IMG/VR virus record: IMGVR_UViG_3300025679_000015
Location: 1-37,668 of that record
DNA: 37,668 nt
Origin: a virus
Reading direction: 5' to 3' (one strand)
Shown: positions 10,668 through 28,660 of the stretch, in pieces
Numbering within the stretch: position 1 is the stretch's first letter
How the letters are laid out: each line of letters starts with the position of its first letter
The notes under the pieces: model-generated
Told to the model about the DNA's origin: nothing
The model's database searches: none
What the model saw: the letters and a program-made list of their open reading frames with translations, nothing else
Made by a program: the position numbers and the translations under genes

Positions 10668-11978
10668 TTAGGAGAGCTGAACGGTCGTGAACAAGTCAGG
10701 CCGCCAAACCGCCAAACCGACCCGCTCCTCGCAGAGCACCAGGATCTGGTTGCTCAGCGCGTAGGTGGAGTGCTGGGTGAAGATTTGGATGTTGACACCC
10801 TCACGGTCGAGGATCATCGCCCCGTGGGCGAAGTCACCGATCAGCGCCGAGCCCTTGACGTACGCACGTGAGCGGACTGTCGGCAGACCCCACACGGTGA
10901 GGCTGTTCAACATTTCCATCGAGTACGGGATGCCGGCGTCGAATGTGCCGGAACCGCCTGCGGCGCGCTTGGTGAACATGTTCCACGCGTCGACCGGGTT
11001 CAGGACGCAGCCGCTCGCGGTGCCGTCGACGTTTTCGATGTCGGCGATCGCCATGCCGATGCTCTGCGCGTACTCACCGGAGACCGGTGTGGTGGTCTGG
11101 ATCCCGGGCACGTTCTTGATGCCCTGAATGTTGGGCCACGTGCCCGATCCGGCGATGAACTCCTGGTCTTCCTTGAACTTCACCAGGTACGGCAGCCGCT
11201 GGTTGATGTAGGCGACGACCAGCGGGGCATCCGACCACAGCTGCTTGGACGGCGACAGTGACACGGCGAGCACTGTCGGTGCGGCGACTTCGCCGACCAT
11301 CGACAGCGACGCGTCGGGCTTGGTTGCGGCTTCCGCCACGGCCGAGGCGCCGAGCTCGTTGCCGGTCGGGTTCAGTTCCCGCACGTACGGGATCTGTGCC
11401 AACGTCGTCGGCTGGGACGGGATCAGGTCGCGCATCGACAGCCGCGCATGACGCGGGATCGGTGCGATCGGCTGCCCCACCGGCAACAGACTGTTGACCG
11501 CGGTCGAACCCGGCGTGCCCGGTCCCGATGTGGTGTCCCACTCTGAGATCGCGCGGGTGCCGTAGTTCGGGTCGATGTAGCCTTCGAGGTCGAACCCGGC
11601 GACGGGCACGTTGATGTTGCCGTCGCGCATGCCGTGATCGACCCACTCCTTCATCCCGGCGGCGTCCATGATCCGCTCGCCCAACGTCCGCTTGGCCCGC
11701 TCGCCGTGGATGCCGAGCGCTCCGGAGGGTGGGAGGTTCTTGCGGTCCTCGTCGGCTTGGGTCGCAGCGGCACGCGCCCGCTCCAAACCGTCCTGGTGCC
11801 GTGCGAGGGTGAACACGGCGTCGAGGACGTCAACTTCGCTGAGCAGGTCCCGCATCTGCTTGCTGTTCTCATCGGACCGTTCGCCTTCGGAAATCTCCGA
11901 CAGGCCGGCGCGCAACTCGGCGCCGCGGACGGCGAGCTCTTCCAGGCTTGCTTCCTTGTACGCAAAAGTGGTTGTCAT
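10668..11978 (-). CDS. HK97-fold major capsid protein (436 aa)
   Basis: The N-terminal ~100 residues are a charged coiled-coil (ASLEELAVRGAELRAGL and more), the delta-domain scaffold normally removed by the prohead protease. The HK97-fold core follows, with VNSLLPVGQPIAPIPRHARL, then PSKQLWSDAPLVVAYINQRL, EDQEFIAGSG, and a C-terminal VNIQIFTQHSTYALSNQILV with W-R-P-D-L-F at the end, all typical of HK97-type capsid proteins. The chosen ATG has a possible site AAAGGCG. A second in-frame ATG 7 codons upstream is also possible. A 5-bp hairpin (11984-11996) sits just before the start. The gene is flanked by a UUCG hairpin upstream and a strong terminator downstream, so it probably has its own expression level. 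Confidence 0.92.
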   Translation of the reverse strand: MTTTFAYKEASLEELAVRGAELRAGLSEISEGERSDENSKQMRDLLSEVDVLDAVFTLARHQDGLERARAAATQADEDRKNLPPSGALGIHGERAKRTLGERIMDAAGMKEWVDHGMRDGNINVPVAGFDLEGYIDPNYGTRAISEWDTTSGPGTPGSTAVNSLLPVGQPIAPIPRHARLSMRDLIPSQPTTLAQIPYVRELNPTGNELGASAVAEAATKPDASLSMVGEVAAPTVLAVSLSPSKQLWSDAPLVVAYINQRLPYLVKFKEDQEFIAGSGTWPNIQGIKNVPGIQTTTPVSGEYAQSIGMAIADIENVDGTASGCVLNPVDAWNMFTKRAAGGSGTFDAGIPYSMEMLNSLTVWGLPTVRSRAYVKGSALIGDFAHGAMILDREGVNIQIFTQHSTYALSNQILVLCEERVGLAVWRPDLFTTVQLS

Positions 11979-12310: not shown

Positions 12311-12970
12311 CTACCACGGTTGCCAGCCCCACTTGTCGACGTAGCGCTGCCGGTCGACCACCGCATGCGCCTGCGACTGCTCGCTCGGCGGGTTATCGGC
12401 GTGGCTGATCCCGAGCCCACCGATCAGCCCAACGCCGTGCGCGAGGTGCTGCGCCTCGAAATCACAGTCGCTGTACCACCAGCGGAACTGCGGGTCGAAC
12501 CTGATCCCGAGCTCACCGGCGACCATGAAACACGGCCCCGGGACCCGGTTGAACACGTCACGACGGCCACCGCCGTAGTTGACCAGCACATCACCGGCCG
12601 CGACGCGCCCGTGCAGGTCAGGCCCGACCATCCCCAGGCCGCGTTCGCGTAGCTCGGTGCGCATCGACGCCAGCGCGAAACCATCGCAGCCCTGCACATC
12701 CGAGGACAAGCACGCCACCTCATACGGGTCATCGCCAGCCAGAGCCGCGATCCAACCCAGGCCGAGGTTCATCCACTCACCGAACAGCATGCCTGGGCGG
12801 TCGAAGATCAGCAGCGTGGCCGCGAGCCCTTCAAGATCGGCGACGCGGAGGGTGTCTGGTCGTGTCGTGACGATCACGACCCGGTTAGCGGCCACCCCTG
12901 AGAGTTTGATCGTGTCGCGCAACTCGGCGGCCCGCGACCCGGTGCAGGGGATCAGCAGCCACGTCGTCAT
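12311..12970 (-). CDS. Putative GT-A glycosyltransferase (219 aa)
   Basis: The N-terminus (MTTWLLIPCTGSRAAELRD) and VVIVTTRP are a nucleotide-sugar-binding Rossmann start. EVACLSSDVQGCDGF holds an S-D-V in place of the metal-binding DxD. The second half has VPGPCFMVAGELGIRFDPQF, then W-W-Y-S-D-C-D-F-E, a pattern of GT2-type enzymes where the acceptor loop and an acidic DxDF motif lie. It starts with ATGA overlapping the previous small gene. It is the last of the sugar-related genes before the capsid gene, so the virion is its likeliest target. The donor sugar cannot be told. Confidence 0.65.
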   Translation of the reverse strand: MTTWLLIPCTGSRAAELRDTIKLSGVAANRVVIVTTRPDTLRVADLEGLAATLLIFDRPGMLFGEWMNLGLGWIAALAGDDPYEVACLSSDVQGCDGFALASMRTELRERGLGMVGPDLHGRVAAGDVLVNYGGGRRDVFNRVPGPCFMVAGELGIRFDPQFRWWYSDCDFEAQHLAHGVGLIGGLGISHADNPPSEQSQAHAVVDRQRYVDKWGWQPW

Positions 12971-13155
12971 AGCTGCGTGTACGGCACTTTTAACAGTTCC
13001 GCCTCCCCGGCTATTAGCTCCTCGCCGGGGCCAATCATCAGCGCAGCCACCTGCTCAGCGACGTCCTGGCTGACCTCCCAGAATCGCACCGTGGCGACAC
13101 CCTCACCAGGCGCAGCGTCCTCGGTGTGGCCGACCATGACCGAATAGGTCGTCAT
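12967..13155 (-). CDS. Small protein in the glycosylation cassette (62 aa)
   Basis: This 62-residue protein (start TTYSVMVGHTEDAAPGEG, then VRFWEVSQDVAEQVAALMI) has a beta start and an amphipathic helix with an acidic end. No family is recognised. It overlaps the cytidylyltransferase stop by ATGA and the following glycosyltransferase start by ATGA, so it is translated with them. A role as a partner or a small regulatory subunit is only a guess. Confidence 0.62.
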   Translation of the reverse strand: MTTYSVMVGHTEDAAPGEGVATVRFWEVSQDVAEQVAALMIGPGEELIAGEAELLKVPYTQL

Positions 13156-13691
13156 CGCGTGCCGGACTTTCGGACGCGGTCCTTCACCTCGGTGCTGCTG
13201 ATCGACCCCGGGGGCCGCGGCACGTACAGCAGCGAAATCCCGCGTTCGTTGAGGTAGTCCTGCGTTACGGCCAGCTGCGCGTAGTAGTCCTTCTGGTACT
13301 GCGCCCAATCCTGGCCGATCACCAGATAGTCGGGCCACACCTGCTCGATGACGACCTTGGCGTCCTCGTTGCCGGTATTCTCGATCACATCATCGACGTA
13401 ACGGCACGAGGCGATGATGACCATCCGCTCGTGCAGCGTCTGAGGCGGACGGTCCTTGAACCGGCCGGCGAAGTCGTCGCTGTTGACCGATACGACGACC
13501 TTGCCGCCCGGGCCGGCGAGTTTGCGGCACTGTTGGAACAGGAACACGTGCCCGCTGTGAAACAGCGAGAAGGTGCCCATTGTGAGGACCGTCGTCGGTC
13601 GCGGCGGTATCGGGTGCAGTTCGTAGCTTGAGGCACCGTCGCCGGCTCCGTAGAGCACTCTGCCGTCGTAGGTCAACTGCTCGCCGCTCAC
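13152..13691 (-). CDS. TagD-like cytidylyltransferase (179 aa)
   Basis: This is a nucleotidyltransferase of the HIGH superfamily, close in pattern to glycerol-3-phosphate cytidylyltransferase, which makes CDP-glycerol from CTP. Motifs (numbered from the GTG): GTFSLFHSGH with the HxGH at about 45-48, SVNSDDF, ERMVIIASCRYVDDVI at about 89-104, DYLVIGQDW, and PRPPGSISSTEVKDRVR with the ISSTxxK motif at about 164-170. These match the TagD layout in order. The start is taken as the GTG in a GTGA overlap with the upstream glycosyltransferase. It probably supplies an activated glycerol or sugar to neighbouring transferases. ADP-heptose-type or other substrates cannot be excluded. Confidence 0.83.
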   Translation of the reverse strand: MSGEQLTYDGRVLYGAGDGASSYELHPIPPRPTTVLTMGTFSLFHSGHVFLFQQCRKLAGPGGKVVVSVNSDDFAGRFKDRPPQTLHERMVIIASCRYVDDVIENTGNEDAKVVIEQVWPDYLVIGQDWAQYQKDYYAQLAVTQDYLNERGISLLYVPRPPGSISSTEVKDRVRKSGTR

Positions 13692-14479
13692 CGGTACACC
13701 TTGAGGTCGTGGCCGCGGCCCTCGACGGGTCCGATGCTCATCGGGTAGTGCTGGGCGACGCAATCCTCGCGGACCCACGTCGGGAAGCCGAGCGCGGTCG
13801 CGTCGTTGTCGTAACACGGGTCATCGGTCAGGCCCAGATCGGGGTCGGTGCGCCAGCGGAGCCGGTTGAACAGGTCGCGGGCGACGAGCAGGAACCCGGC
13901 CGTGTTCATGTGCTGGGTGATACGCCAGTCCCACACCTCGCAATCGCAGGTCGCGTCAGGGTCGAGCCCGTAGAAGCCGCATCCGTCTATGTGCGGAAGC
14001 GCCGACACGTCAACGCGTGGCCCTTCGAGGATGTAGGTCGGGACGCGGCCGCCGACGATCGGGTAGTAGACCTGCAGCAGCTTGGTCAGTGCGTCGCCGG
14101 GGATTGAGGTGTCGGCGTCGGCGAACAGCACGTGGGACGCGCCGTTGTCGACGGCCCACTGAGTGATCAGGTTGCGGCTGGTGCAGATCCTTACGAGTCT
14201 GTTGCCGGTGGTGACGCTCGCGCGGCCGTCGTCGTAGGAGAACGTCAGCAGGTTGTTCGGGTGCAGCCCTTTGGCGTCCATCAGGTCAAGGACCGGCTTG
14301 AACACTTCAAGGCCGCGCGCGTCGAGTTCGAGGACGAGCAGCCAGTGGACGTCGGACCCGGCGCCGTCGGCGCGCATGTGTGAGTCGCGGATTTCTTCGG
14401 CGTGGTCGAGCCAGGAGGCGTAGTAGCCGGGTTCGGGGCCGATCTTCCACGCGGGTAGTTCTGAGGCTACGACGATCAT
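13688..14479 (-). CDS. GT2-like glycosyltransferase (263 aa)
   Basis: This is a GT-A fold enzyme with a clear metal-binding DxD motif, ASHVLFADADTSIP at about residues 114-127. It is preceded by RICTSRNLITQWAVDNG, the helix that normally comes before DxD. Later, PIVGGRVPTYI and a loop with Cys/Asp residues (PDATCDCEVWDW) precede NTAGFLLVARDLFNRL, the typical 'G-x-x-x-x-R-R' type region. The C-terminal D-D-P-C-Y-D-N-D is acidic. It likely moves an NDP-sugar to a virion or surface acceptor. A short hairpin lies just before its ribosome site (AAAGGA), and it ends with a GTGA overlap with the cytidylyltransferase. Confidence 0.75.
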   Translation of the reverse strand: MIVVASELPAWKIGPEPGYYASWLDHAEEIRDSHMRADGAGSDVHWLLVLELDARGLEVFKPVLDLMDAKGLHPNNLLTFSYDDGRASVTTGNRLVRICTSRNLITQWAVDNGASHVLFADADTSIPGDALTKLLQVYYPIVGGRVPTYILEGPRVDVSALPHIDGCGFYGLDPDATCDCEVWDWRITQHMNTAGFLLVARDLFNRLRWRTDPDLGLTDDPCYDNDATALGFPTWVREDCVAQHYPMSIGPVEGRGHDLKVYR

Positions 14480-14492
14480 GGTCGGTCCTTTG

Positions 14493-14507
14493 TTCGGGGT
14501 GCCCGAA
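14493..14507 (-). terminator. Short hairpin upstream of GT2-like gene
   Basis: TTCGGG and CCCGAA form a perfect 6-bp stem with a 3-base loop between the stop at 14522 and the ribosome site of the GT2-like gene. No U-tract follows. It could be a weak terminator or a translational spacer, and the call is tentative. Confidence 0.35.
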
Positions 14508-14521
14508 TGCTACGCGCCGGA

Positions 14522-15106
14522 CTAGCCCGCTGTCAGCACGCCATTGGTCAGAAACCCGTGATAATCCCCAGCTTGGATCGAACCCCCACCAGCGGCGCAC
14601 GTCAGCCCGTTCTTGTCGACCGTGACTGGTTCGGTCAGCGGGTCACCGTGACGGACCCAGCAACGGTGCGCATAGTCGTAGGGCATCGTGCAGTTGCTGG
14701 CCCTCGAATCGATCGTCCACTGCGACCCGTTGGGGCAGACGACGGTCAGCTGTGGCCCTTCGGCGAATAGGTAGGACGGCGACCGGCACGGCAAAGTCGG
14801 ATCCGCTGACGACGGGCCGCGGTAGTGGCTCGGGTTCGCGGCGAACGACGCGCGCACCGATGAGAGGCTCTCCTCGGTGTAGCCCGACCAATCATCGGGG
14901 CCGGTCGGCGGCGCGCTGCTTTGGCGCATCTCCTGAAACCACATCGCACCCGGTGGCAGCTGGTGATGCCATTCGATCTGTGTCGCGATGATTTCGCCGG
15001 TGTCGATGCGACGCCAGTCGTGCAGGGTGTCATCCGATGCGCCGTTGCGGATCGATGTTTCGTTGCACCGCTCGACCATGAACGTCGGTGTCGCAGGATA
15101 GGTCAC
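14522..15106 (-). CDS. Conserved-looking phage protein of unknown function (194 aa)
   Basis: The C-terminal half has a striking mix of Cys, Trp and His: LTVVCPNGSQWTIDSRASNC, then YDYAHRCWVRHGDPLTEP, then LTCAAGGGSI and DYHGFLTNGV. A 'GSI...YHGFL.NG' end is familiar from small unknown-function proteins of actinobacterial phages. The N-terminal half is mixed. The start is GTG in a GTGA overlap. It has no signal peptide and no visible catalytic motif. It lies at the edge of the glycosylation cassette and could be unrelated. Confidence 0.7.
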   Translation of the reverse strand: MTYPATPTFMVERCNETSIRNGASDDTLHDWRRIDTGEIIATQIEWHHQLPPGAMWFQEMRQSSAPPTGPDDWSGYTEESLSSVRASFAANPSHYRGPSSADPTLPCRSPSYLFAEGPQLTVVCPNGSQWTIDSRASNCTMPYDYAHRCWVRHGDPLTEPVTVDKNGLTCAAGGGSIQAGDYHGFLTNGVLTAG

Positions 15107-15540
15107 TGGTCGCGCACCACGCCACGAAACGACGTCCGCACGTCAACGTCGGAGCCGAGCTCGTGCACGACGTAGGGATTGCGGCCCGGGCCATGATTCG
15201 GGGCATAAGGCCGATCGCCGCCGACCGCGAAGAACTCCATCGCCTCGTGAAGTTCGACAAGACAGAACTGGTCGAACAGCCACCGCAACCACGTCCGGGC
15301 ATCATAGGCAGCCGGGGGCACCGGCATGTAGTGGTACACGCCGTAGGTCTGACCGCGCTCGGGGTGATAGGAGTCGTAGCCCATTGTGCAGATGACCAGC
15401 GTCAAGCCTTCGCTGCCCTGTCCGCGATCGAGGTCTCGGAGCGTCACAGTCCAGTTCGGCCGGTAGGCCGTCTGCGCCACCAGGTCGGCGAGAGCCTGCG
15501 GGTATGGCGCGATCTGGCGATTCTCAGCGGACTCGGTCAT
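15103..15540 (-). CDS. Hypothetical phage protein (145 aa)
   Basis: The protein contains WTVTLRDLDRGQGSEGLTLV and MGYDSYHPERGQTYGVYHYM, then ARTWLRWLFDQFCLVELHEA. These aromatic segments resemble a small, often seen but unnamed actinophage protein family. The last part, YAPNHGPGRNPYVVHEL, ends in an extended tail. The ATG at 15540 is the first in-frame one after the previous stop, giving 145 residues. A longer form would run through the previous gene. No function can be assigned. Confidence 0.68.
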   Translation of the reverse strand: MTESAENRQIAPYPQALADLVAQTAYRPNWTVTLRDLDRGQGSEGLTLVICTMGYDSYHPERGQTYGVYHYMPVPPAAYDARTWLRWLFDQFCLVELHEAMEFFAVGGDRPYAPNHGPGRNPYVVHELGSDVDVRTSFRGVVRDQ

Positions 15541-15554
15541 GCCGTTAATCGTAG

Positions 15555-15764
15555 CTACTGAGGCTGGGAAACCCTCGGGTCCGTCACGAACGGCGCGGCA
15601 ACAGTCGGCGCGGCGCACTCGTGCGGACCCCACTCGCCCAGCACAGCCTGCTTGACTGGCGTCGGGTTGCTGCCAGGCGGCGCGACCGCAACGACCCGCA
15701 GGTCACGGTCCTGCCCGCAGTCCTCGCACTTGACCTTGCCGTCGAATAGCGCCTTGGTTGTCAT
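15555..15764 (-). CDS. Small zinc-ribbon-like protein (69 aa)
   Basis: VKCEDCGQDRDLRV gives a CxxC knuckle, and GPHECAAP gives H and C about 30 residues later, so one zinc may be bound. The rest is Pro/Ala/Val-rich. It starts with ATGA overlapping the GT4 stop. Zinc-ribbon small proteins recur in this genome (33769, 34620, 35788). The function is unknown. Confidence 0.65.
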   Translation of the reverse strand: MTTKALFDGKVKCEDCGQDRDLRVVAVAPPGSNPTPVKQAVLGEWGPHECAAPTVAAPFVTDPRVSQPQ

Positions 15765-16861
15765 GCGTGCACCCTACCCTTGATCGTTGACTCCCACGCA
15801 TCAGCCCACAGCTCGCCCCACTGCTCATACGTCTGCAACGCCGCGGCCGCCCGCGCCCGCCCAGCAACCTCAGCCCGATAATCGTCACCGGCAGCGAGCG
15901 CGCCGAGCTCGCGACGCCAATCCGCCGCCGTGTCAGCCAGCACACCAATCCCATGCGACACCAGACGCCGGTTATCCGGTGTCGGTGACACCACCGCCGG
16001 CACCCCCACCGACGCGAACTCCAACGACTTCAGCGCGCTCTTCGCCCGACCGAACCTCGTCGCAGCGAGCGGCACCATCCCCACCGCGACCCTGGCCAGC
16101 TCACGCGGATACGCAGCGAACGGCACCCACACACCAAGCGACGACACCGCAGGCACCCCCAACGCCGCAGCGGCGCCGCGACCCGGGCCGACGATATGCA
16201 CCCCCCACCGGTCGTGATCCTCCAACGCGCCGCGCAGCCCGGGCGCTGCGACCTGCAGATCACCGGGGTGCGTATCAACGCTGCCCGACCAGCCGAACGT
16301 GCGCTCAAGAGGCTCAGCTGCCGTGATCGCCAAATAGGAGGCCGGGACCATGTTCGGGAGCACCACCGCACGCCCGTGGCCGTAGCGGTCACGCAACGCC
16401 GGCGTCGAGACCGTCACAAGGTCCGCGAGGGTCGCGGCGCGCATGATCCAATCCTTGTTCGCCCACTCATGGGCCAGCTGGCAGTTGGATCGGCAACGCC
16501 GTGTGTGGTGCGGGGAGTAGGTGGCGTGCGCGCCGTTGTCGAGTGGGATCGCCTCAAAGTCGTCGTCTAAGTCGACGACGACCTTCACGCCAGCCTTCTG
16601 CAGGTGCGGGATGATCTCGGCCCAATGCGCACGCACCGGCCGGTTGATGACCACCACGTCGGCGTCGGGTGCCTGCTCGAGGCCGATACAGCGCGCCTCG
16701 TACGGCGGCATCTTCCCTGTCCACTTGCGGTCCCATTGCGCGAGCGGCCCGACCTGGTCGATGACGACGTCGACCCCTTGCGCGGCGAGGGCGAACGCGG
16801 GGAACTTCATCCGGTACCAGCACGAGGCGTCGTCGTTCGCTGGCCACACCAGCACCCTCAC
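15761..16861 (-). CDS. GT4-like glycosyltransferase (366 aa)
   Basis: This is a GT-B fold enzyme. The N-terminus RVLVWPANDDASCWYRM is the first Rossmann strand and loop of GT1/GT4 enzymes. DADVVVINRP and VKVVVDLDDDFEAIP follow. A second Rossmann half begins near TFGWSGSVDTHPGDL. The strong signature is RFGRAKSALKSLEFASVGVP, which matches the GT4 donor-binding 'K-x-x-L-K-x-x-E-x-x-A-x-G-x-P' motif with the Glu. It starts with GTG in a GTGA overlap with the 96-residue gene; an in-frame GTG two codons earlier is also possible. It is the first of the sugar-transfer genes after the protease. Confidence 0.82.
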   Translation of the reverse strand: MRVLVWPANDDASCWYRMKFPAFALAAQGVDVVIDQVGPLAQWDRKWTGKMPPYEARCIGLEQAPDADVVVINRPVRAHWAEIIPHLQKAGVKVVVDLDDDFEAIPLDNGAHATYSPHHTRRCRSNCQLAHEWANKDWIMRAATLADLVTVSTPALRDRYGHGRAVVLPNMVPASYLAITAAEPLERTFGWSGSVDTHPGDLQVAAPGLRGALEDHDRWGVHIVGPGRGAAAALGVPAVSSLGVWVPFAAYPRELARVAVGMVPLAATRFGRAKSALKSLEFASVGVPAVVSPTPDNRRLVSHGIGVLADTAADWRRELGALAAGDDYRAEVAGRARAAAALQTYEQWGELWADAWESTIKGRVHA

Positions 16862-17148
16862 GGCCACCGCTCAAGGTCGCGCGCGCGGACGATGAACTGC
16901 AGATCCCACCAGTTATGCGACACCCATTCCGAGCCGTCATACATCGTCAGGAGGATGCAACCCTCTGGTGCCGTCTCGATCCAAGTGTTGAAGAGTACCG
17001 ACGTCGAGCGAATCGAACCGTTGTCGAGTAGGTCCACAGACAGGCCAGCCGCGGCGCGCATGACCGGCACGCCGTCGGTGTCGGGGCGAATGTCGATGAG
17101 CGAGTCGAACACCGGCTCGGTGGAGACGCGTATCGGCAGCGCGGTCAT
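16858..17148 (-). CDS. Hypothetical protein upstream of GT4 (96 aa)
   Basis: This 96-residue protein is beta-rich, with TGFxxL-like strands (PVFDSLIDIRPDTDGV, AAAGLSVDLLDN) and a Trp-rich end (YDGSEWVSHNWWDL). No family is recognised. The stop overlaps the glycosyltransferase start as GTGA, suggesting linked translation. It follows the protease gene by about 107 bases. A capsid-associated or acceptor role is a guess only. Confidence 0.6.
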   Translation of the reverse strand: MTALPIRVSTEPVFDSLIDIRPDTDGVPVMRAAAGLSVDLLDNGSIRSTSVLFNTWIETAPEGCILLTMYDGSEWVSHNWWDLQFIVRARDLERWP

Positions 17149-17255: not shown

Positions 17256-18497
17256 CTAGCCGACGCGGATGCTGCGCAGTCGGCGCCGGGCCACCTCAAT
17301 GTCGAGCAGCTCATCGGCGCCGTCATCGACACTGCGCCCACCAGAATCGCCGGCAACCTCCACCCCGGTGCGCTTCGCGGCCGTCTTGATCGCAGCCTTC
17401 ACCTTCGCCAGATCCTCGGCACTGTAAAGCGCCGCGTTCTTCTCCTGGTTGATGAACGCCCACGCGCTCTTGACATGCGCGGCGGTGTCGATCGGGTACC
17501 GCTTCTGCTTGTCCTTCTGATACCCGGGGTCGGCGTAGGTCACGTCGCCGAACGGTTCGCCTTTCGCGGCACGCTCAGCCTCGAGCTCGGCCGCGGCCGC
17601 CCGCGCAGCGTCGATGGTGTCAGCGTCCGCGCCGTCGTCAGGGTCAGGCAACCCCAGCGCCTCGAGCAGCTCATCGGCGGCGACGTCAGCCGCATGCAAC
17701 AACTGTGCGACCTGCCCCACCCCGGGCGGCAGCGTCGACAGGTCAAGGCCGTCGATGATGGCGATCGCGGCGTCGACCGCGCCGTCGATCGCCTGCGCGA
17801 GCTCAGCCGGTGTCGCGTCGTCATCCTGCCCGTCGCCGTTGCCGGTTTCGTCGTCGTTGTGTGAGGTGACGGTGCCATCGTTGCCGACCGTGATCGTGAT
17901 CGACCGATGACCAGCCGCGAGCGCCTGGTGCAACGCCGCACCAACCGCATCCGCCGCCTCAGTGTCGGGCGCCTGGATGATCTCGCCGTCGGCGTCGCGG
18001 ACGCTGATCGTGTGCGTGCCGACCACTGACGGGTCGACGACGGGGGAAACGTGGACTAGGCGGGCGCGCGTGAACTTGTTGACGCCGCGCTGGTTCGGGT
18101 CGGGCACGGTCTCCCCGTCGCGGAACTTGTACGACCAGCCTTGCAGGTGGCCGTCTTTCAGCAGCGACCAGCAGGCCCTCGCGGAGGGCACGTCGGCGAA
18201 GTCAGCGAACCGCATCGTCAGCTGCGCGCCGCGCTCTGTGCTGTTGCTGGTGTGGACTGAGCCGACGATGTTGGCGATGTTCCGCTCATCGTGGCCGAAC
18301 ACCATCGGGATCGTCCGCTCGCCCGCGCCGACCTGCTGCAGCGACTCGTCGCACCAGCCCGCGCCCCAGGTCGTGCGGTAGCTGTCGGGGGTGTCTGTGA
18401 AGGGGCAGACCATCGCCTCGACGAAATGCTGCCCGTTCTCCTCGAACGTGCGGGTGCCAGCGTCCTCCATCAGCACGGTGCGGAACTGAGGATCCAT
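17256..18497 (-). CDS. HK97-type prohead protease with C-terminal extension (413 aa)
   Basis: Residues 1-170 form the S78-type maturation serine protease that removes the capsid delta domain: MVFGHDER with catalytic His at about 69, and GHLQGWSYKFR with the catalytic Ser at about 122. The third position, usually Glu in 'xEVSPV', reads L-V-H-V-S-P-V here. After an acidic linker of about 100 residues comes FGDVTYADPGYQKDKQKRYP then VKSAWAFINQEKNAALYSAE and IKAAIKTAAKRTG-like helices. This is a DUF6582-like domain often fused to actinophage proteases. The ATG has AGGAG upstream. At 413 residues the protein is about twice the usual length. Confidence 0.88.
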   Translation of the reverse strand: MDPQFRTVLMEDAGTRTFEENGQHFVEAMVCPFTDTPDSYRTTWGAGWCDESLQQVGAGERTIPMVFGHDERNIANIVGSVHTSNSTERGAQLTMRFADFADVPSARACWSLLKDGHLQGWSYKFRDGETVPDPNQRGVNKFTRARLVHVSPVVDPSVVGTHTISVRDADGEIIQAPDTEAADAVGAALHQALAAGHRSITITVGNDGTVTSHNDDETGNGDGQDDDATPAELAQAIDGAVDAAIAIIDGLDLSTLPPGVGQVAQLLHAADVAADELLEALGLPDPDDGADADTIDAARAAAAELEAERAAKGEPFGDVTYADPGYQKDKQKRYPIDTAAHVKSAWAFINQEKNAALYSAEDLAKVKAAIKTAAKRTGVEVAGDSGGRSVDDGADELLDIEVARRRLRSIRVG

Positions 18498-18623: not shown

Positions 18624-21212
18624 CTAGACGGTGGCCCCGGCCGCGTTCTTCCAGACCGAGCCGTTCGACCAAATCGGAATGGCGAGGCTCGTGTCGTAGA
18701 ACTGCGCACCAGCGCCGACAGCCGCTGCCGAGGGGCGCGAACCGGTCACTGCTTGCCCGGTCTTGAGCGACCCGAGCCCCGTGGTACCGCCGACCGCTAA
18801 CACTCCAGCCGAATCTCGCACGAGGGCCAGATCGTAGGCGGTGCCGAAATAAATGCCGGTGCCGAGTCCTGCGGCTTGAATCTGGACGCCCGTTGACCCC
18901 GAGCCGAAGGTGACGGCTTTAGCGAAGTTGAGGGTGCCCCAATCGTCAGCGCAGACAATCTTCGATCCCCAGTTAGAAGACGGGGTGGCACCCATGCGAA
19001 CACCGATCGCGTGTGCCGTACCCAATGCGGGACAGGGCACCGTGTACGGCCCGGTACCCGTCGCGTCACCGGACGTGACAATCGTTTCCTCGTTGTTGCC
19101 GAGGTCGATCCGCACCGACGAACCACTGGGAATGAACCTGTCTGAAATAAACGACGTGGCACCGATCGACGTGGCACCCCCGAGGGTTGCGAGGATTACC
19201 GATCCACCGGACGGCCCGAATGTGATGCTCGGGAATCCGGTGGTTACATCGGTGCCGATCGACACTTCGGATGCGAACCCGCGGCTACCGGCGATCCGCT
19301 GGTAGCTGTCTACCCCTTGACCTCCAGCGTCGCCAGGGACACGGAAAGTACCCACTTGCCCCGTGGTGGCCTCTGCGATGGCCGCGACGGTGTGCAGAAG
19401 TGCGGCGGCTGCCGGGGAAGCGTTGGTGTTCGGCTCGAACATGACCGTGCGGCCAGACAGGTAAGCGACCGCCGCGTCGTTGACGGAGAACTCTTCACCG
19501 AACGGGCCATACACGGTCGCCGTGGTGCCCTTGATGGCGATCGTGACCCGGTACACGGTGCCATCGGTTGCCATCGGCCGACGCCAGTTACCGAACAGGA
19601 TGCCATTGTTTGTGGCGAAGTTCGCCTCTGTGTCTTGCCGCAACGCGACCCCGAACCCGTTTGGGCCGAAGTTGCAGTGGACCATATTCGCCAGCGACAG
19701 CGGCACATCTTTGGAGAACGCCATCGTCATCGACGCGATGGTCGGATCACCGGTGAACGACACTTCGCAACTGATCGACCGCGGCTGAACGGCGAGCGCC
19801 CCGTACAGGTAGCCGGTACCCGCCGAGTTGACGGCCCCCGATGTCACGGTCGGCGCCTGCGCACCCGTTGTGGCCCACGCGGGACCGATCAGCGGCGCGA
19901 TACCGGACGGGGAGCCGTTCACATACCCGCTGAAGTCGTCGTAGAGGCTAACGGTGGCGCGGCCGATCGGCGCATAAGTGTTGTCCTGGGTGGCGGGAAG
20001 GTTCAGTGACCACTTCGACCCGGTACCCGATGCGGTGCTCGCACCCGAACCCTTGACTACGTTGCCGGTGACGATGTTCCCGACACAGCCTGAACTTTCA
20101 ACGATCGCCGGGTTCGGGACCGCGTTGGTGTTGACGATGTTGTTGGCGACCGTGTTACCGGTGGACGTGGAGACGAGGCGGATTTCCTCGTATGTGCTGG
20201 TGGCCAACGAGTTTTGGTCGACCACATTTCCGGTGACGGTGCAGTAGTTGCAGTTCCCGACACGGATACCGGCCCCGGTGTTGCCGGTGACGCTGGCCCC
20301 GGTGACGGTAATCAGTGACGAGTTGTAGAGCGCAATCCCGTGGAGTAGGTTGCCGCGGTACGCGCCACCGATGACGGAACTGTCCTGCGTGCCGTCGTGG
20401 ATCGAGACGCCCTCGTTCGCGTTGCCCTGGGCGGTGCAACTGATCAGTTCGACCCGGTAGTGAATGATGCCCGTCTCACCGCAGCGGTAGCCGACCTGGT
20501 TGTTGTAGGCGGTGCAGCCGAGGAGTTTGATGTCGTCCGCGAGGATTTCAAAGCCGGACGAACTGTTGTTCGTCGTCCCGTCGATGCCGTTGTCGTGGGC
20601 GGTGCACTGGGAGAAGACTGCCCGGTTTACCCGAATGATGTCCCAGGCGTAGGACTTGCAGTTGCGGACCTCGACGCGGGTTGCCTGAATGTCATACGGG
20701 TACGGCTGGCCGGTCGCGCCGCCGACGTAGATGCCGTACTGCCGGTACGTCGAGTCCAGGGTGTGCAGGACGGTTTTGTTGCCATCGACCGTGAAGTCCC
20801 GCATTACGACGTTGTTGACCTGCGTCGATGAGGTGACGTTAATCCGCAGCGTGGGCAGGTCGTAGGTGTAGCCCGATCCGGACGTGTTGGCGGGCGAGAT
20901 GGATGGGTTCGGATCGTGCAGGAGGATAGTCGCGCCCATGCCCGCACCTGCGAGGGTCACGTTGCTGCCAAGCGAAATGTTGGCAACGACGTAAGTCCCG
21001 GCCTGTAGCTGGACCGTGCCGCCGCCTGCGGCGATACAGGCAGCGATCTTCGCTTGGACGTTCGCGGTGTCCGTTGCCCCTACACCGGTCGGTGCCGCGA
21101 CGCCGAACACCTGCGCATAAGTGCTGGGAAGCGCCAGCAGCGCATCGTCGATGGCGTTGTGGTCGGCGGTGTGCCCGGTGTCGCCGATGTTGTGCGTGCC
21201 AGTGATGGCCAT
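18624..21212 (-). CDS. Beta-helix tailspike-like protein (862 aa)
   Basis: TDTANVQAKIAACIAAGGGT at about residue 47 is the classic start of a pectate-lyase-3-type right-handed beta helix, the fold of phage polysaccharide depolymerase tailspikes. About 300 residues of short strands with N-T-G-N-type turns follow (VTGNTGAGIRV, VTGNVVDQN, NTVANNIVNT). A jelly-roll-like region lies at about 410-600. The C-terminus has QFYDTSLAIPIWSNGSVWKN, a motif found at the tips of many phage fibres. The start overlaps the previous stop as TGATG. It sits between portal and protease, an odd place for a tail fibre. Enzyme activity is not shown, as no active-site residues can be picked out. Confidence 0.8.
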   Translation of the reverse strand: MAITGTHNIGDTGHTADHNAIDDALLALPSTYAQVFGVAAPTGVGATDTANVQAKIAACIAAGGGTVQLQAGTYVVANISLGSNVTLAGAGMGATILLHDPNPSISPANTSGSGYTYDLPTLRINVTSSTQVNNVVMRDFTVDGNKTVLHTLDSTYRQYGIYVGGATGQPYPYDIQATRVEVRNCKSYAWDIIRVNRAVFSQCTAHDNGIDGTTNNSSSGFEILADDIKLLGCTAYNNQVGYRCGETGIIHYRVELISCTAQGNANEGVSIHDGTQDSSVIGGAYRGNLLHGIALYNSSLITVTGASVTGNTGAGIRVGNCNYCTVTGNVVDQNSLATSTYEEIRLVSTSTGNTVANNIVNTNAVPNPAIVESSGCVGNIVTGNVVKGSGASTASGTGSKWSLNLPATQDNTYAPIGRATVSLYDDFSGYVNGSPSGIAPLIGPAWATTGAQAPTVTSGAVNSAGTGYLYGALAVQPRSISCEVSFTGDPTIASMTMAFSKDVPLSLANMVHCNFGPNGFGVALRQDTEANFATNNGILFGNWRRPMATDGTVYRVTIAIKGTTATVYGPFGEEFSVNDAAVAYLSGRTVMFEPNTNASPAAAALLHTVAAIAEATTGQVGTFRVPGDAGGQGVDSYQRIAGSRGFASEVSIGTDVTTGFPSITFGPSGGSVILATLGGATSIGATSFISDRFIPSGSSVRIDLGNNEETIVTSGDATGTGPYTVPCPALGTAHAIGVRMGATPSSNWGSKIVCADDWGTLNFAKAVTFGSGSTGVQIQAAGLGTGIYFGTAYDLALVRDSAGVLAVGGTTGLGSLKTGQAVTGSRPSAAAVGAGAQFYDTSLAIPIWSNGSVWKNAAGATV

Positions 21213-21541
21213 CAGTAGGTGTCCCTCAGTGAGAAGATGGCCGAGTCATCCTCGGCGGTGACTGACAGGTCGATCGCGTGCGCGATGCAATCAATCGTCC
21301 CAGGCACCCAGTCACGGTTCGTTGCTGACCACCGAGCACCCGTGGACACCAGCGCCACCGTCACACCGAACCCGTTCGGGTGCGCCGACCTTGATGCCAC
21401 ATACCAGACCGTGTCACTCGACACCGTCGCCGGCATCGCGACCACCTGCGTCAGCGCGCTGTCGGAGTACACGGTCGGGCCGACGATGTTGACGGTGTGC
21501 GCGACCCCGTTGACCAGCACCGAGATAGCTCGAGAACTCAC
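21212..21541 (-). CDS. Hypothetical structural protein after the portal fusion (109 aa)
   Basis: The protein is beta-rich: AISVLVNGVAHTVNIVGPTV, YSDSALTQVVAMPATVSSDT, then AIDLSVTAEDDSAIFSLRDT. It may be a virion protein, such as a spike adaptor, because it is coupled by overlaps to the portal fusion (GTGA) and the beta-helix protein (TGATG). The start is GTG. No named family is recognised. Confidence 0.65.
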   Translation of the reverse strand: MSSRAISVLVNGVAHTVNIVGPTVYSDSALTQVVAMPATVSSDTVWYVASRSAHPNGFGVTVALVSTGARWSATNRDWVPGTIDCIAHAIDLSVTAEDDSAIFSLRDTY

Positions 21542-24500
21542 GGGCGCGATCCCTTCGCGGCGGGGACGTACATGGTCGTGCAGCGGCAGTTGACGAAGTC
21601 GGACGGAGGCGCTGTGCGCATGTCGCCCGGGTGATCCATAGCAAAGCCTCCCACCATGAACGGTTCGCCCAATGGTCGCACCTGGCCGTTCGCTTCCGCG
21701 TGAGCCTCCCGCGTCCGCGCGTCGGGGGTCGCCAGCCACTCCTTGGACGCCACTATGCCAGCTGGCAGGGCGGTCGCGTACGCGTCCTGCGCCGTGTTCA
21801 CAGCACTCATCGTTTCCGTTCTCGCGATCCGCTCGGCGCGCACGTTGTCGGCCTCATCGAACACGGCGCTGATCCGGTCAGCGATCGGTCGCATGCCTTC
21901 GCCAGCGGTCATGCCGTCGCTGATCGCGGCGTGGATCTGGTCGTAGGTGTCGCGGGTGACCTGATCGGCCAGCTTCGATACGCGGCCGGCGAGCGCCGTG
22001 CGAGCGGCACTGACCGCGTCGGGGAACACCGGCTGGCCGGGGGTGATCTGCTCAGCCAACCGCTGCGTCGTCAGCGTGCGAACCGTGGCGAACACCGGAT
22101 TGAGCGCCGTCTGCGTCTCATCAGCCCAATGCGCGACGTCGAACACCGCACCCGCGTCGATCGCCCCAGCCGCACCCTGGACACCACCAGGTTGCGTAGC
22201 GTCGGCGGGTTGCGCGGCGCGGGTCATCATCGCCGCGCCCCGCCGGCCGGTCAGCCTGCTCATGACCGCTTTGCGTTGCTTGGCGAACACCGCGGCCATC
22301 GCCTCAGCCATTTGTGGCTCAAGCACATCAGCGTGCTGCTTGACCAGTCGCCGGGTCTGCACCCGCAGCTGCCGACGGTTCGCGGGGACCAGACCTGCGG
22401 TGCGGGCGCCGACCTGCCGCGGGTTGACGAGGATCAGTCCATGCGCGGGCGCGGTGACGCCCTTGCCGCACACTTTGCAGCGGCGCCGGTTGGTCGTCGA
22501 GGATTGGAACGCGTGAGCCGCGGCGACCAGCCGCGGCGGGTTACCTTTTGGGAGCAGCAGTCCCGCCGATGAAGCCTCGGTCAGCGCGTCACGCTTGTGC
22601 GTCTCGCCAGGCGCGTGCCCCGGTCGCGCCCCGGTCGCGCGCATATGCAGGTTAGAGCAGAGACCCTTGACCTCACCGGGGTTGACGTACTTGCCGAGCT
22701 CAACCACGCATCGGTCGAAGTCGCCATCGGTGCCCCAGCCGATCTTCGCCGCGCCTTCCCCGTGCGCCCAATACTCCATGAGGCGCTCAGTTGCGACGGG
22801 CGCCTTCGCGGTCTTATTGACGCGGATCCCGGCGACCAGACGCTCGATCACGGTCACCGCGTCGCGGGCCTGCGCGGGCAGCACGCCACGATCACCTGAC
22901 AGGCCGGCAGCGTCGGCGGCGCGGTTCAGCTTCTGCTCGTGCATGTCCTTTTGCCACGGGCCGCTGGTGGTGTCGACGGTGCCGACCAGCGCCGGGATGG
23001 TGCGCTTACCTGCGCGGTCGAACGCGAGCGTGCGGTGGTAGCCGTCCGCGATCTCGAGCTTCCCCTCGCCGGTGTCGACGAGCACGACCGGGTCCATACT
23101 CTGCCCGTCCTTGACCGCGGCCGCGATCCCATCGACCTTGGACTGGTCGCGGCCACCGGGCCGGCGCGCCATCTTGATCTCATCGAGTGGCACCCCTGGG
23201 TCATATTTCCACGTCGCGGTTTTGACCCAGTCGAGCACGGTGCCGGGGTAGGCGTGCTCGAGGAGGTCGAGGACCTCAGCAGCCGGGACGGGCCCGGTCT
23301 TGAAGGTGGTTGCGGTCGCGCGGGAGAAGTTGCTGACCTTGTTTTGTCCTCCGGGCGCGTCGTCGACCGCCGGCAAGTTCTGCACCGGCTTGTCCGCAGG
23401 GCTTAACGGGGCGAGACCAACGTCGTTGCGCCAATCATCGGCGGTCGCCAGCCCTGCGGCGACCGCTGCGTCGGCGGCCATTGGGGCGAACACATTCGAC
23501 CCGGCGCGCAACGCTTCGACACCGGAGAAATCGAACCAGCACACGTTCCCGTCACCGAACCGCGGCGAGAGGAACTGGTTGATGTCGTCGCAAATCTCGG
23601 CGGCGATCTCCATGATGGGGCCGTCCCAAAAGTTCTTGGCCTCCTGGTTCGCGTTCTCATAGACCCTTTGTGTTGAGTCACCGAGCAGCGACATGGGGAC
23701 GCGCCACGCACGGAGCAGGTCCGCTTTGACTTCCTGCAGGATCGCCAGCACGTTCGCGTCGACCGGTGTGGTCGCCAAGTCGATGACCTGGATCGGCGGC
23801 AGGCCCTTCCCTGCGCCCGCAGCTGGGGTGCCGAGCGGATCATCCTCGTAGTAGCCGTGCAAGATCCGGCCGCCGTTGTCGTAGCCGGCGTATTCGGCGG
23901 CGAACTGGTCCTCCCAGGCGCGGCGCTCATCATCATCGGCGATGTCGGGGGTGATGACGAGTTTGCGGGCCGACAGCCCGTTCTTCGCCAGCGCCCACAT
24001 GTACCGGTCCAGGGCGATCTGCAGTGAGGCGGGCATCCCTGCGGCCATCAGCGCCGATTCGGGTTGCCGCCAGTCGATTTGGCCGGGGCGCCACGAGTAG
24101 AACACCTGGTCGGCGGTGAACGGGATCAGTCCGCTGGGCAGCATGTATTGGAACCCGTCGAACCAGCGGACGGACCCGGTACCGGACGGAATGGGGTTGA
24201 GGAACGGTGCGACGAGCGGCCAAATCGCGCCCGGGACTTTGGAGCCGGGCGGGCACACGGTTTCCCACGCCATCCGGCCTGCGATCAACCTTTGGATGAT
24301 CGACCAGATCGCCAGGTTACGGCTTGAGGTGGCAGGGTTGGGGCCGCACGGTGGTGGGCCAAGAAGTTTCGCGCCTTGGCTGCTGGTGTCGTAGTCGCCG
24401 GGCTTGTTCGGGTCGGCACCGAACCGGATCGGCAACGACCCGAGCGCGGTCGCGATCGTACGAACGGGTTGCATGATGTAGATCGACGCCTGGTAGCCGT

Positions 24501-24678
24501 TGCGGATCGCGGTCAGCCCATCCCATTCGGGGACTTGCGGCATGCCGGGGGTTGAGTACCAGACGTTTCCTGAGCCGCCTTTGGGGGGGGTGTTGTTGCC
24601 GGCGGGTGGTTTGGTGGTGACCGCTGGGGTGGGGGCGCGTTCACCTGACAGGCCAAGGACACGACCGAGGGCTGTCAC
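21538..24678 (-). CDS. Portal - ParB-like - MuF fusion protein (1046 aa)
   Basis: Residues ~55-430 are an HK97-type portal, the DNA entry ring (ANQEAKNFWDGPIMEIAAEI and WRVPMSLLG are typical). Residues ~495-566 look like a ParB/Srx-type domain: MARRPGGRDQSKVDGI, then MDPVVLVDTG, then EIADGYHRTLAFDRAGKRTI, where GYHRTLA matches the ParB 'G-x-x-R-x-x-A' motif. Residues ~630-690 carry a W-x-x-G-E-G-A-A-K-I segment seen in other actinophage head proteins, then a CxxC at 734-737. Residues ~945-1038 are a MuF/gp7 capsid-morphogenesis domain (AERIARTETMSAVNTAQDAY, then SDFVNCRCTTMYV). It starts with GTG in a GTGA overlap with the small membrane gene. Portal-MuF fusions are known, but the ParB-like insert is unusual. 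Confidence 0.88.
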   Translation of the reverse strand: MTALGRVLGLSGERAPTPAVTTKPPAGNNTPPKGGSGNVWYSTPGMPQVPEWDGLTAIRNGYQASIYIMQPVRTIATALGSLPIRFGADPNKPGDYDTSSQGAKLLGPPPCGPNPATSSRNLAIWSIIQRLIAGRMAWETVCPPGSKVPGAIWPLVAPFLNPIPSGTGSVRWFDGFQYMLPSGLIPFTADQVFYSWRPGQIDWRQPESALMAAGMPASLQIALDRYMWALAKNGLSARKLVITPDIADDDERRAWEDQFAAEYAGYDNGGRILHGYYEDDPLGTPAAGAGKGLPPIQVIDLATTPVDANVLAILQEVKADLLRAWRVPMSLLGDSTQRVYENANQEAKNFWDGPIMEIAAEICDDINQFLSPRFGDGNVCWFDFSGVEALRAGSNVFAPMAADAAVAAGLATADDWRNDVGLAPLSPADKPVQNLPAVDDAPGGQNKVSNFSRATATTFKTGPVPAAEVLDLLEHAYPGTVLDWVKTATWKYDPGVPLDEIKMARRPGGRDQSKVDGIAAAVKDGQSMDPVVLVDTGEGKLEIADGYHRTLAFDRAGKRTIPALVGTVDTTSGPWQKDMHEQKLNRAADAAGLSGDRGVLPAQARDAVTVIERLVAGIRVNKTAKAPVATERLMEYWAHGEGAAKIGWGTDGDFDRCVVELGKYVNPGEVKGLCSNLHMRATGARPGHAPGETHKRDALTEASSAGLLLPKGNPPRLVAAAHAFQSSTTNRRRCKVCGKGVTAPAHGLILVNPRQVGARTAGLVPANRRQLRVQTRRLVKQHADVLEPQMAEAMAAVFAKQRKAVMSRLTGRRGAAMMTRAAQPADATQPGGVQGAAGAIDAGAVFDVAHWADETQTALNPVFATVRTLTTQRLAEQITPGQPVFPDAVSAARTALAGRVSKLADQVTRDTYDQIHAAISDGMTAGEGMRPIADRISAVFDEADNVRAERIARTETMSAVNTAQDAYATALPAGIVASKEWLATPDARTREAHAEANGQVRPLGEPFMVGGFAMDHPGDMRTAPPSDFVNCRCTTMYVPAAKGSRP

Positions 24679-26719: not shown

Positions 26720-28660
26720 TCATGAGTTGGCCAAGATTAGCCGAAGGTTCGGTGTCGAGACGGGTCCAGCTTGCCACGTGGTGGTCGGGCGCCCAGCGCG
26801 GACGCGCCACGCCGTCGCGGTGGCAGGCAGCGAGGTCATGTCGGTGGCGGGTGCGCTGTCGGACGCGAACACCCCAATCGAGGCTGTGAACGGCGCTGTT
26901 TCGTGGGCCGGTGCAGGGTCAGCCATGAACACGCCGAGCGCGGTGTTGGTGCTGGTCGAGTCGAAGCCACCCAGCCCGACGTCATGCGCGGAGACTGATC
27001 GGGCACCAGCGACACCTGCCGTGGTGTCGGTGGCGGGTGAACTATCGGCGACAACACGGGCGCCGCTAGTTGCCCTGGTCGCGGCGTCGCTCGCACCGGC
27101 CGTGTCCGCTGCGGTAGCGGACCCGAGCCGAAACGACGACGCGGGAGCGTCGGTGGCGTGCGCCGTGTCCGAGCAGGAGCGGCCCATCACGACGCCAGGT
27201 GTCGCGGTATCAGTCGCGGCCGCGGTGTCGACGGCGGCGGCGTGCAGGACCGCGCCAGATATCGAACCACTGTCAACAGCTGGGGCGCTGTCGAGCGCAG
27301 GGGTGGCCAAGATGATTGGGCTGCCGACAGCCGAATCGGTAGCGTGCGCCGTATCGGCAGTCGTGACCGAGCCCGGCCGCGATGACCCCACCGCAACATC
27401 AGTCGCGTGCGCCGTATCCGATGCGGTGACCGTACTCGAGCGGAACGTGCCAGCAGCGGTGTCGACGGCCGCCGCCGTGTCCGCGGTGGTGAGGGTGTAT
27501 TCCACGAACTGCTGCTGATCGGTGTCGCGGATCAGCACATCCTCAACGACCGAGACCGTCACCAAGGTCGCCCCGCCGAGCGAGCCGTACGTGTCGCCGT
27601 AAACGCCGAGGTACCTGTCAGACGTGCCGCCACCTGTGCCATCGGTGGCTGCCGCCGTGTCGGCTGCGGCCCGGGTGAACGCGCCAGCCTTAGTCGCCGT
27701 ATCCGTCGCCGCAGCCGTGTCGGGCGGTCCGCGGGTGAGCGCCGCCGAGAACGTGAGCGTTTCGGTCGCATGCGCAGCATCTGCGACAGCGCGGGTGTGC
27801 GCAAGCAGCGTTTTGACCGCCGAATCGGTCGCCGCCGCGGTGTCGGATGCAGTGACGTGCCGCCCCATCGCCGGCATCGCGACGTCCGTGGCATGCGCTG
27901 TATCCGATGCGGTCACGCTCGCGGTGCGCTGCTGCGTCAACGTCTCCGTCGCGTGCGCAGTATCCGAGCAGCTCGCGGTCATGACGGCCGGCCCGAGGGG
28001 ACCGATCAGCGTCGCCTGACTAGCGTGCGCGAACGCACCCACGTTCTTAGTCCAACCGCTGGTCGTGTTGGCGCTGCTGACATGCCGCACCAAAGTGACC
28101 GTCGCAGCCCCGGTGTTCTTGCCGGTCAGGCTGCCAGAGTGCCCAGTGATCGGCGACGCATCGTTGTCGTCGTACACACCCCACACCACCGACGCCGACC
28201 CCGCAGAAACGGTGATCGCGAGCTCGAACCGATACCAGTTGCCGGGGGTCAGCGCGATACCCGTCCCGGTCGCGATGATCCCGGTCGTGTCCTCCACGTA
28301 AGGGATGCCCGAGGAGTTGACCGACAGGCGGCATGCGGTGCCGCTCGCATTGCGAATGTCGATGATCCGATCCACCCCGGCCGGCAACCCGGCACCGTTC
28401 CACTGGTGCGCCGTCCTCTCCGCGCTGTGCGTTGCCTCGCTGACCACGTACTCCGCGAACGACCCCGTCGACCCGCTCGTGAACAGCCACGTCTCACCGC
28501 TGCCCTGACAACTGGGCACCGCGACGCCAGTGTCGGCGACAAGCGTCGCGCCTGTCCCCAACCCGATCGTCATCCCCGACTGGCCACCGGTCGAGGAGTT
28601 ACCCGACGTGATCGCGGTGCCGTCAGCCAACCCCTGCGGGAAGGTTCGCGCGGTCGTCAT
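26720..28660 (-). CDS. LamG-like protein with DTAHATD-type repeats, tail fibre-like (646 aa)
   Basis: Residues ~15-215 resemble a concanavalin/LamG-type lectin domain (GNWYRFELAITVSAGSASVV, then VYDDNDASPITGHSGSL). Residues ~228-610 are a chain of about 16 units containing a core such as SDTAHATD, ADTAAATD or DSAPATD, with a Ser/Thr/Val-rich strand between. One non-repeat insert (about 345-395) holds SDRYLGVYGDTYGS. The C-terminus ends LRLILANS. The start overlaps the previous stop as TGATG. The Ala/Thr/Asp composition and repeats suggest a fibrous virion protein. The carbohydrate role is inferred from the LamG-like part only. Confidence 0.7.
   Translation of the reverse strand: MTTARTFPQGLADGTAITSGNSSTGGQSGMTIGLGTGATLVADTGVAVPSCQGSGETWLFTSGSTGSFAEYVVSEATHSAERTAHQWNGAGLPAGVDRIIDIRNASGTACRLSVNSSGIPYVEDTTGIIATGTGIALTPGNWYRFELAITVSAGSASVVWGVYDDNDASPITGHSGSLTGKNTGAATVTLVRHVSSANTTSGWTKNVGAFAHASQATLIGPLGPAVMTASCSDTAHATETLTQQRTASVTASDTAHATDVAMPAMGRHVTASDTAAATDSAVKTLLAHTRAVADAAHATETLTFSAALTRGPPDTAAATDTATKAGAFTRAAADTAAATDGTGGGTSDRYLGVYGDTYGSLGGATLVTVSVVEDVLIRDTDQQQFVEYTLTTADTAAAVDTAAGTFRSSTVTASDTAHATDVAVGSSRPGSVTTADTAHATDSAVGSPIILATPALDSAPAVDSGSISGAVLHAAAVDTAAATDTATPGVVMGRSCSDTAHATDAPASSFRLGSATAADTAGASDAATRATSGARVVADSSPATDTTAGVAGARSVSAHDVGLGGFDSTSTNTALGVFMADPAPAHETAPFTASIGVFASDSAPATDMTSLPATATAWRVRAGRPTTTWQAGPVSTPNLRLILANS
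26831..27979 (-). repeat. Tandem DTAHATD-type repeats (about 16 units)
   Basis: On the plus strand these show as recurring GCGTGCGCCGT and TGTCCGATGCGGT-like blocks, encoding A-S-D-T-A-H-A-T-D, T-A-D-T-A-A-A-V-D, C-S-D-T-A-H-A-T-D and related cores at roughly 18-30 residue spacing. The same core, including GSDTAHASDVATG, also occurs in the N-terminal part of the neighbouring beta-helix gene at about 29.75 kb. Confidence 0.75.

Follow-up and report, generated by a model that had tools for sequence, protein, structure and literature searches.

A set of predicted glycosylation genes lies between the prohead protease gene and the major capsid protein (MCP) gene of an uncultivated phage, from a group headed here as soil phages. 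The cassette is real, coherent and conserved; what appears to be new is its capsid-side slot, the pairing of transferases with a nucleotidyltransferase (NTase) being already known. Glycosylation of the virion is the best reading of these genes, and a fairly probable one. A related set is found in the same place in most relatives, which suggests that the phages decorate their own virions with sugars. Reports of virion glycosylation are, to our knowledge, limited to a few mycobacteriophages. A clade with absent, simple or elaborate islands makes it possible to ask what advantage particle decoration gives a phage outside an animal host, and the partner genes of the slot could allow prediction of sugar chemistry.

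Layout of the cassette

The window analysed is a whole IMG/VR virus record of 37,668 bases, for which no near DNA match was found among phage records. Head genes on the minus strand follow the order terminase, portal-MuF fusion, beta-helix protein, S78 protease, cassette and MCP. A sequence-only reading had described a GT4-like, a GT2-like and a further GT-A-like enzyme together with a TagD-like cytidylyltransferase between protease and MCP; this gene content is borne out, with an HxGH NTase as the fourth enzyme, and all the open reading frames lie where that reading had placed them:

17256-18497, minus strand: prohead protease (S78) with C-terminal DUF6582, the upstream border (Pfam Peptidase_S78 5.1e-7, DUF6582 1.1e-17)
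16858-17148, minus strand: p96, small protein (open reading frame; GTGA overlap with GT4)
15761-16861, minus strand: GT4-like (GT-B type) glycosyltransferase (PHROG 7162 9.3e-27; Glyco_trans_1_2 1.7e-5)
15555-15764, minus strand: p69, small protein (open reading frame; ATGA overlap with GT4)
15103-15540, minus strand: p145, PHROG 1540, of unknown function (PHROG 1.2e-16)
14522-15106, minus strand: p194 (C-terminal match in L177/L178)
13688-14479, minus strand: predicted GT-A glycosyltransferase (GT2-like), 263 aa, DAD motif (AlphaFold model, VIA, conserved residues)
13152-13691, minus strand: HxGH NTase; its phage family is marked by the signature GxDWA..DYYxQ (CTP_transf_like 2.9e-16)
12967-13155, minus strand: p62, small protein (open reading frame; ATGA overlaps on both sides)
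12311-12970, minus strand: predicted GT-A glycosyltransferase, 219 aa (AlphaFold model, VIA)
10668-11978, minus strand: MCP, the downstream border (Phage_capsid 9.6e-20; PHROG 10 2.6e-28)

The GTGA/ATGA coupling and the HSGH, RYVDDVI, ISSTEVK and DAD motifs that had been pointed out are also present. Between p96 and the 219-aa GT-A gene there are eight junctions, of which six are overlaps and two (p69/p145 and p194/GT2-like) are not; the overlaps make co-translation of the cassette genes likely. The GT4 gene starts with a GTG at 16861 that overlaps the preceding stop, and another GTG is found upstream at 16867.

No credible homolog of the small genes p62, p96 or p69 is present among the fetched relative loci (designated by L numbers), and the notion that they represent conserved partners was rejected on this ground. 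A homolog of p145 is present in L060, a locus carrying GT4. The C-terminal 79 residues of p194, with the pattern CPNGxxWTIDxRASNC..., are 63% identical to a protein whose gene immediately follows that of the capsid in L177 and L178; p194 is a candidate virion or assembly component.

Two of the neighbouring head genes carry further matches. Portal and MuF are fused in a protein of 1046 aa (21541-24678) whose middle part is weakly similar to ParB (PHROG 1033, 7e-5), and long portal-MuF frames are found in several relatives as well. The MCP also matches a family 3 encapsulin shell model, at 5e-22 but under the cut-off of the model.

The predicted enzymes

The GT4 protein passes the Pfam Glyco_trans_1_2 cut-off marginally (25.3 bits vs 25), and its PHROG 7162 match (9.3e-27) is to a glycosyltransferase family; a sequence-profile search showed no related solved structures. 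The family is common in environmental phages (176 confirmed loci), and nearly every whole record searched has a single copy. Genes of the 219-aa family are found in 22 of 80 GT4 loci, half of these adjoining GT4, and in other phages head genes make up a minority of the genes adjoining GT4 relatives.

Neither the 263-aa nor the 219-aa protein has a significant match in Pfam or PHROG profiles. Relatives were therefore collected and AlphaFold structures predicted for both orphans, with comparisons by Foldseek and VIA-align. The models (pLDDT 87 for the 263-aa and 91 for the 219-aa protein) are clear GT-A folds over the whole length, with Z about 17. COLGALT1, a collagen galactosyltransferase, ranks first for the 263-aa model (VIA Z 16.8, rmsd 3.7, 213 aligned), where rows within one Z unit, including other kinds of transferase, are tied. 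For the 219-aa model, GalNAc-T2 (VIA Z 16.9, rmsd 2.8, 201 aligned), heparosan synthase, TarP and others are tied at VIA Z 16-17. Since the top matches are tied, the type of acceptor is not readable from the folds. In the alignments, the acidic metal-binding or catalytic residues expected of GT-A enzymes are conserved in both proteins: D123 and D219-D220-P221 are invariant in 11 relatives of the 263-aa protein, and D91, D168 and D206 in 24 of the 219-aa protein. A concern of the sequence-only reading, that the transferase-like proteins might lack donor-binding folds, is not substantiated in the two modelled proteins. The prediction that three of the enzymes transfer glycosyl groups has good support from the GT4 profiles, the two GT-A models and the conserved acidic residues.

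What might the NTase make? It matches PF01467 CTP_transf_like (2.9e-16, 60.3 bits vs a cut-off of 21), HSGH representing the HxGH motif. TagD, the glycerol-3-phosphate cytidylyltransferase, shares this motif and is the nearest full-length solved relative of the phage NTase family, but it lacks the DYYxQ...WLDE part of an extra GxDWA..DYYxQ...WLDE segment common to the family members. Against the TagD equivalog TIGR01518 the phage enzyme scores 60.7 bits, far under the cut-off of 165.4 and nearly equal to its score with the HldE adenylyltransferase domain model (55.8 bits). When the family profile is compared with the PDB, PECT (6e-30) and GCT (4e-25) are found, with CCT and a bacterial phosphonate-pathway enzyme also among the best solved relatives, all ahead of the one LPS-core enzyme listed. 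With cytidylyltransferases as the best-matching solved structures, the product is more probably CDP-linked than ADP-linked, and glycerol is only one candidate. In the GTFDLFH motif, the Asp is changed to Ser in this protein alone of 89 sequences. The change may signify altered specificity or lost activity and, given this departure from the family at a near-universal residue, the enzyme may be altered or weak.

Environmental phages commonly carry the NTase family as well (one scan confirmed 551 loci), and its neighbours in other phages include GT25, GT2 and GT4 transferases and epimerases; no LicD- or TagF-type transferases are among the families listed for these neighbours. The earlier proposal of a CDP-glycerol or glycerol-phosphate donor thus fares poorly: in view of the TagD score, the neighbour families and the unique Asp to Ser change, CDP-glycerol as the settled donor was rejected as unproven. 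The comparison does single out a widespread phage NTase family, often beside transferases, that has no known substrate.

The capsid-side slot in relatives

IMG/VR loci were fetched by capsid sequence alone and were not chosen for transferases; counts refer to the 22 loci where portal and MCP are both visible in the usual order. GT4 is found between portal/protease and MCP in 18 of these, and the other four have a short interval with no GT4. The distance from portal to MCP is 2.7-8.3 kb (median 5.8 kb) with GT4 and 1.5-2.4 kb without (n=4). Independent cases are fewer than 22 because of the near-duplicate pairs L182/L186 and L040/L194. For three further capsid relatives (L173, L179 and L183), neither portal nor GT4 has a match in the flank covered. 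In L187, GT4 and the protease are on the opposite strand, and the record of L175 has no GT4 in the slot but one elsewhere. The slot GT4s group together on the tree, with 4 changes vs 15.9 when shuffled, which argues that the slot is old.

The GT4 of L010 (1552-4047) holds an intein, with LAGLIDADG and intein-splicing domains, at a conserved KS loop. Inteins tend to sit in essential active sites.

The partners of GT4 vary among relatives and include GT-A enzymes, NTases, GDP-mannose dehydratase/epimerase (nucleotide-sugar enzymes) and methyltransferases. Some islands are simple, with GT4 alone (L182, L186), and elaborate ones also occur. Slots with both GT4 and an NTase are those of L006, L185, L189 and L196, and relatives of the 263-aa protein are in the slot of L012, L028, L177 and L190. 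Elsewhere, in L117, L123 and L140, relatives of the 219-aa protein (42-45% identical) directly follow GT4 and NTase. Among 61 proteins of the slot intervals, Pfam identified five of the dehydratase/epimerase type, along with several methyltransferases, PhyH oxygenases and GT2 domains. To judge from these matches, the recognisable slot genes mostly concern glycan chemistry and read as the parts list of a putative glycan pathway. An MT-A70 adenine methyltransferase is present in the protease-capsid island of L006 (7499-8041), just ahead of GT4.

No cultivated member of the group was found, the capsids of the isolates listed being at most 37% identical, and two capsid-profile scans of 84,980 species genomes for prophage relatives gave none. 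The TerL is nearest to those of phages of Actinoplanes and Streptomyces, which are Gram-positive hosts. No earlier description of the capsid-side slot was found in a limited literature search.

Putative target and known phage systems

The cassette probably constitutes a late-expressed glycosylation unit in the head-assembly operon. The most likely task of GT4 and the two GT-A enzymes would be to assemble a short sugar chain within the cytoplasm, and the NTase would supply one activated donor from a host phosphometabolite, probably either an alcohol phosphate linked to CDP or a nucleotide sugar. The most likely acceptor would be a virion protein made simultaneously (capsid, tail tube or spike), and the outcome a decorated particle of presumed benefit to the phage. 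Virion glycosylation is supported by the capsid-side position together with the glycan-pathway parts list in relatives; the link is circumstantial. The conserved place by the capsid gene in 18 of 22 relatives favours virion decoration over random insertion, but shared position could signify shared late transcription instead of a shared target.

Which virion protein could carry the glycan? Modification of the mycobacteriophage type would place glycans at the C-termini of capsid and tail tube. MCP and tail tube protein have no Ser/Thr-rich tail, and the capsid and tail-tube proteins of mycobacteriophage Che8 are also without an obvious one. An acceptor signature at the MCP C-terminus was rejected, as the end residues fail to separate loci with GT4 from those without. 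Between portal-MuF and protease is an 862-aa right-handed beta-helix protein (18627-21212) with a virion-structural match at its C-terminal end and no homolog among the fetched loci; it is possible that this protein is a spike and the glycan acceptor. A 646-aa protein (26723-28660) is 26% Ser+Thr and carries degenerate protein-level repeats of the type DTAHATDTA; it has no Pfam or PHROG match, and its DNA tandem repeats are only trivial.

The main rival to virion glycosylation is that the cassette modifies a host cell-wall polymer, a teichoic-acid-like glycan, in the cytoplasm, and so blocks further phage adsorption or keeps progeny from being lost on debris. TarP and TarS, the latter an enzyme of teichoic-acid synthesis, have folds like that of the 219-aa enzyme, but the TarP likeness is tied with many other GT-A enzymes. 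The relationship of the NTase to glycerol-3-phosphate cytidylyltransferase and the TerL affinity to phages of Gram-positive bacteria point the same way, but the cassette has no recognisable flippase or anchoring enzyme, and a head-operon position is unusual for host-surface modifiers. Wall-polymer modification is unlikely on balance. Or are the genes loose cargo, transferases for unrelated targets gathered in a tolerant gap and sharing no function? In favour of this, the partner genes differ strongly from one relative to the next, and the slot NTases, which have long branches on the tree, do not form a single supported clade. Against this, GT4 persists as a recurrent gene that clusters on the tree, a conserved loop of it hosts the intein in L010, and glycan chemistry predominates among the recognisable genes; loose cargo is quite improbable. 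Glycosylation of modified phage DNA bases against restriction, an activity that phage glycosyltransferases can have (Pyle 2024, as cited in PMC12619734), would fit with the MT-A70 gene in the slot of L006, but this explanation is very improbable, as 0 of 18 clade records (these being fragments) carry a thymidylate-synthase-family base hydroxymethylase, and apart from that MT-A70 the slots showed no recognisable base-modifying gene.

Virion glycosylation, the preferred reading, can be extended to a capsid-side decoration island, in which an old GT4 and interchangeable partners rebuild the virion coat from one phage to the next, sometimes with a CDP-activated non-sugar unit from a phage-specific cytidylyltransferase family. 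This extension is speculative and rather unlikely; if true, the island product would be a virion phosphoglycan, unlike the simple glycan known so far.

The sequence-only reading had taken the donor enzyme beside the transferases to be the novel part, but such neighbours are already annotated in Arthrobacter phage Racecar and in the Streptomyces Stanwilliamsviridae phages Daubenski and Beuffert, and the pairing is therefore not new. Racecar gp174-gp179 (also Mimi, Talia1610 and Atuin) include, in a single stretch, a GT4 with 33% identity over the full length, other glycosyltransferases and an NTase (45%), with overlapping GT and NTase genes. Racecar, however, is a 194-kb phage whose cassette is among tRNA, RNA-ligase and recombination genes and not between protease and MCP, and by BLAST neither GT-A protein of the window is similar to its other transferases. 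Daubenski and Beuffert have the order GT - GT - NTase - small gene; the NTase is 39-46% identical, with an overlapping glycosyltransferase gene before it and an overlapping small gene after it. They differ in that no GT4 relative was found in the stretch, which is away from the capsid genes. A small gene after the NTase shared with these Streptomyces phages was considered and rejected, as no similarity is detectable. In Streptomyces phage Zuko a GT4 relative (28%) adjoins a UDP-glucose dehydrogenase near the terminase, and a relative of the 219-aa GT-A protein is also present; Streptomyces phage TurkishDelight has a glycosyltransferase between MCP and a tail protein; the positions are different, and no NTase is annotated in the stretches read.

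In mycobacteriophages, modification of the virion with glycans by the phage's own enzymes is established (Freeman 2023, as cited in PMC12363180; PMC12619734), and in Che8, Corndog and Myrna phage-encoded transferases glycosylate capsid and tail tube, as described in PMC12363180. The phage described here likewise encodes its own transferases, three as predicted from sequence and structure. Che8 differs in gene arrangement: only a scaffold gene lies between its protease and MCP, and its named transferase is gp110.
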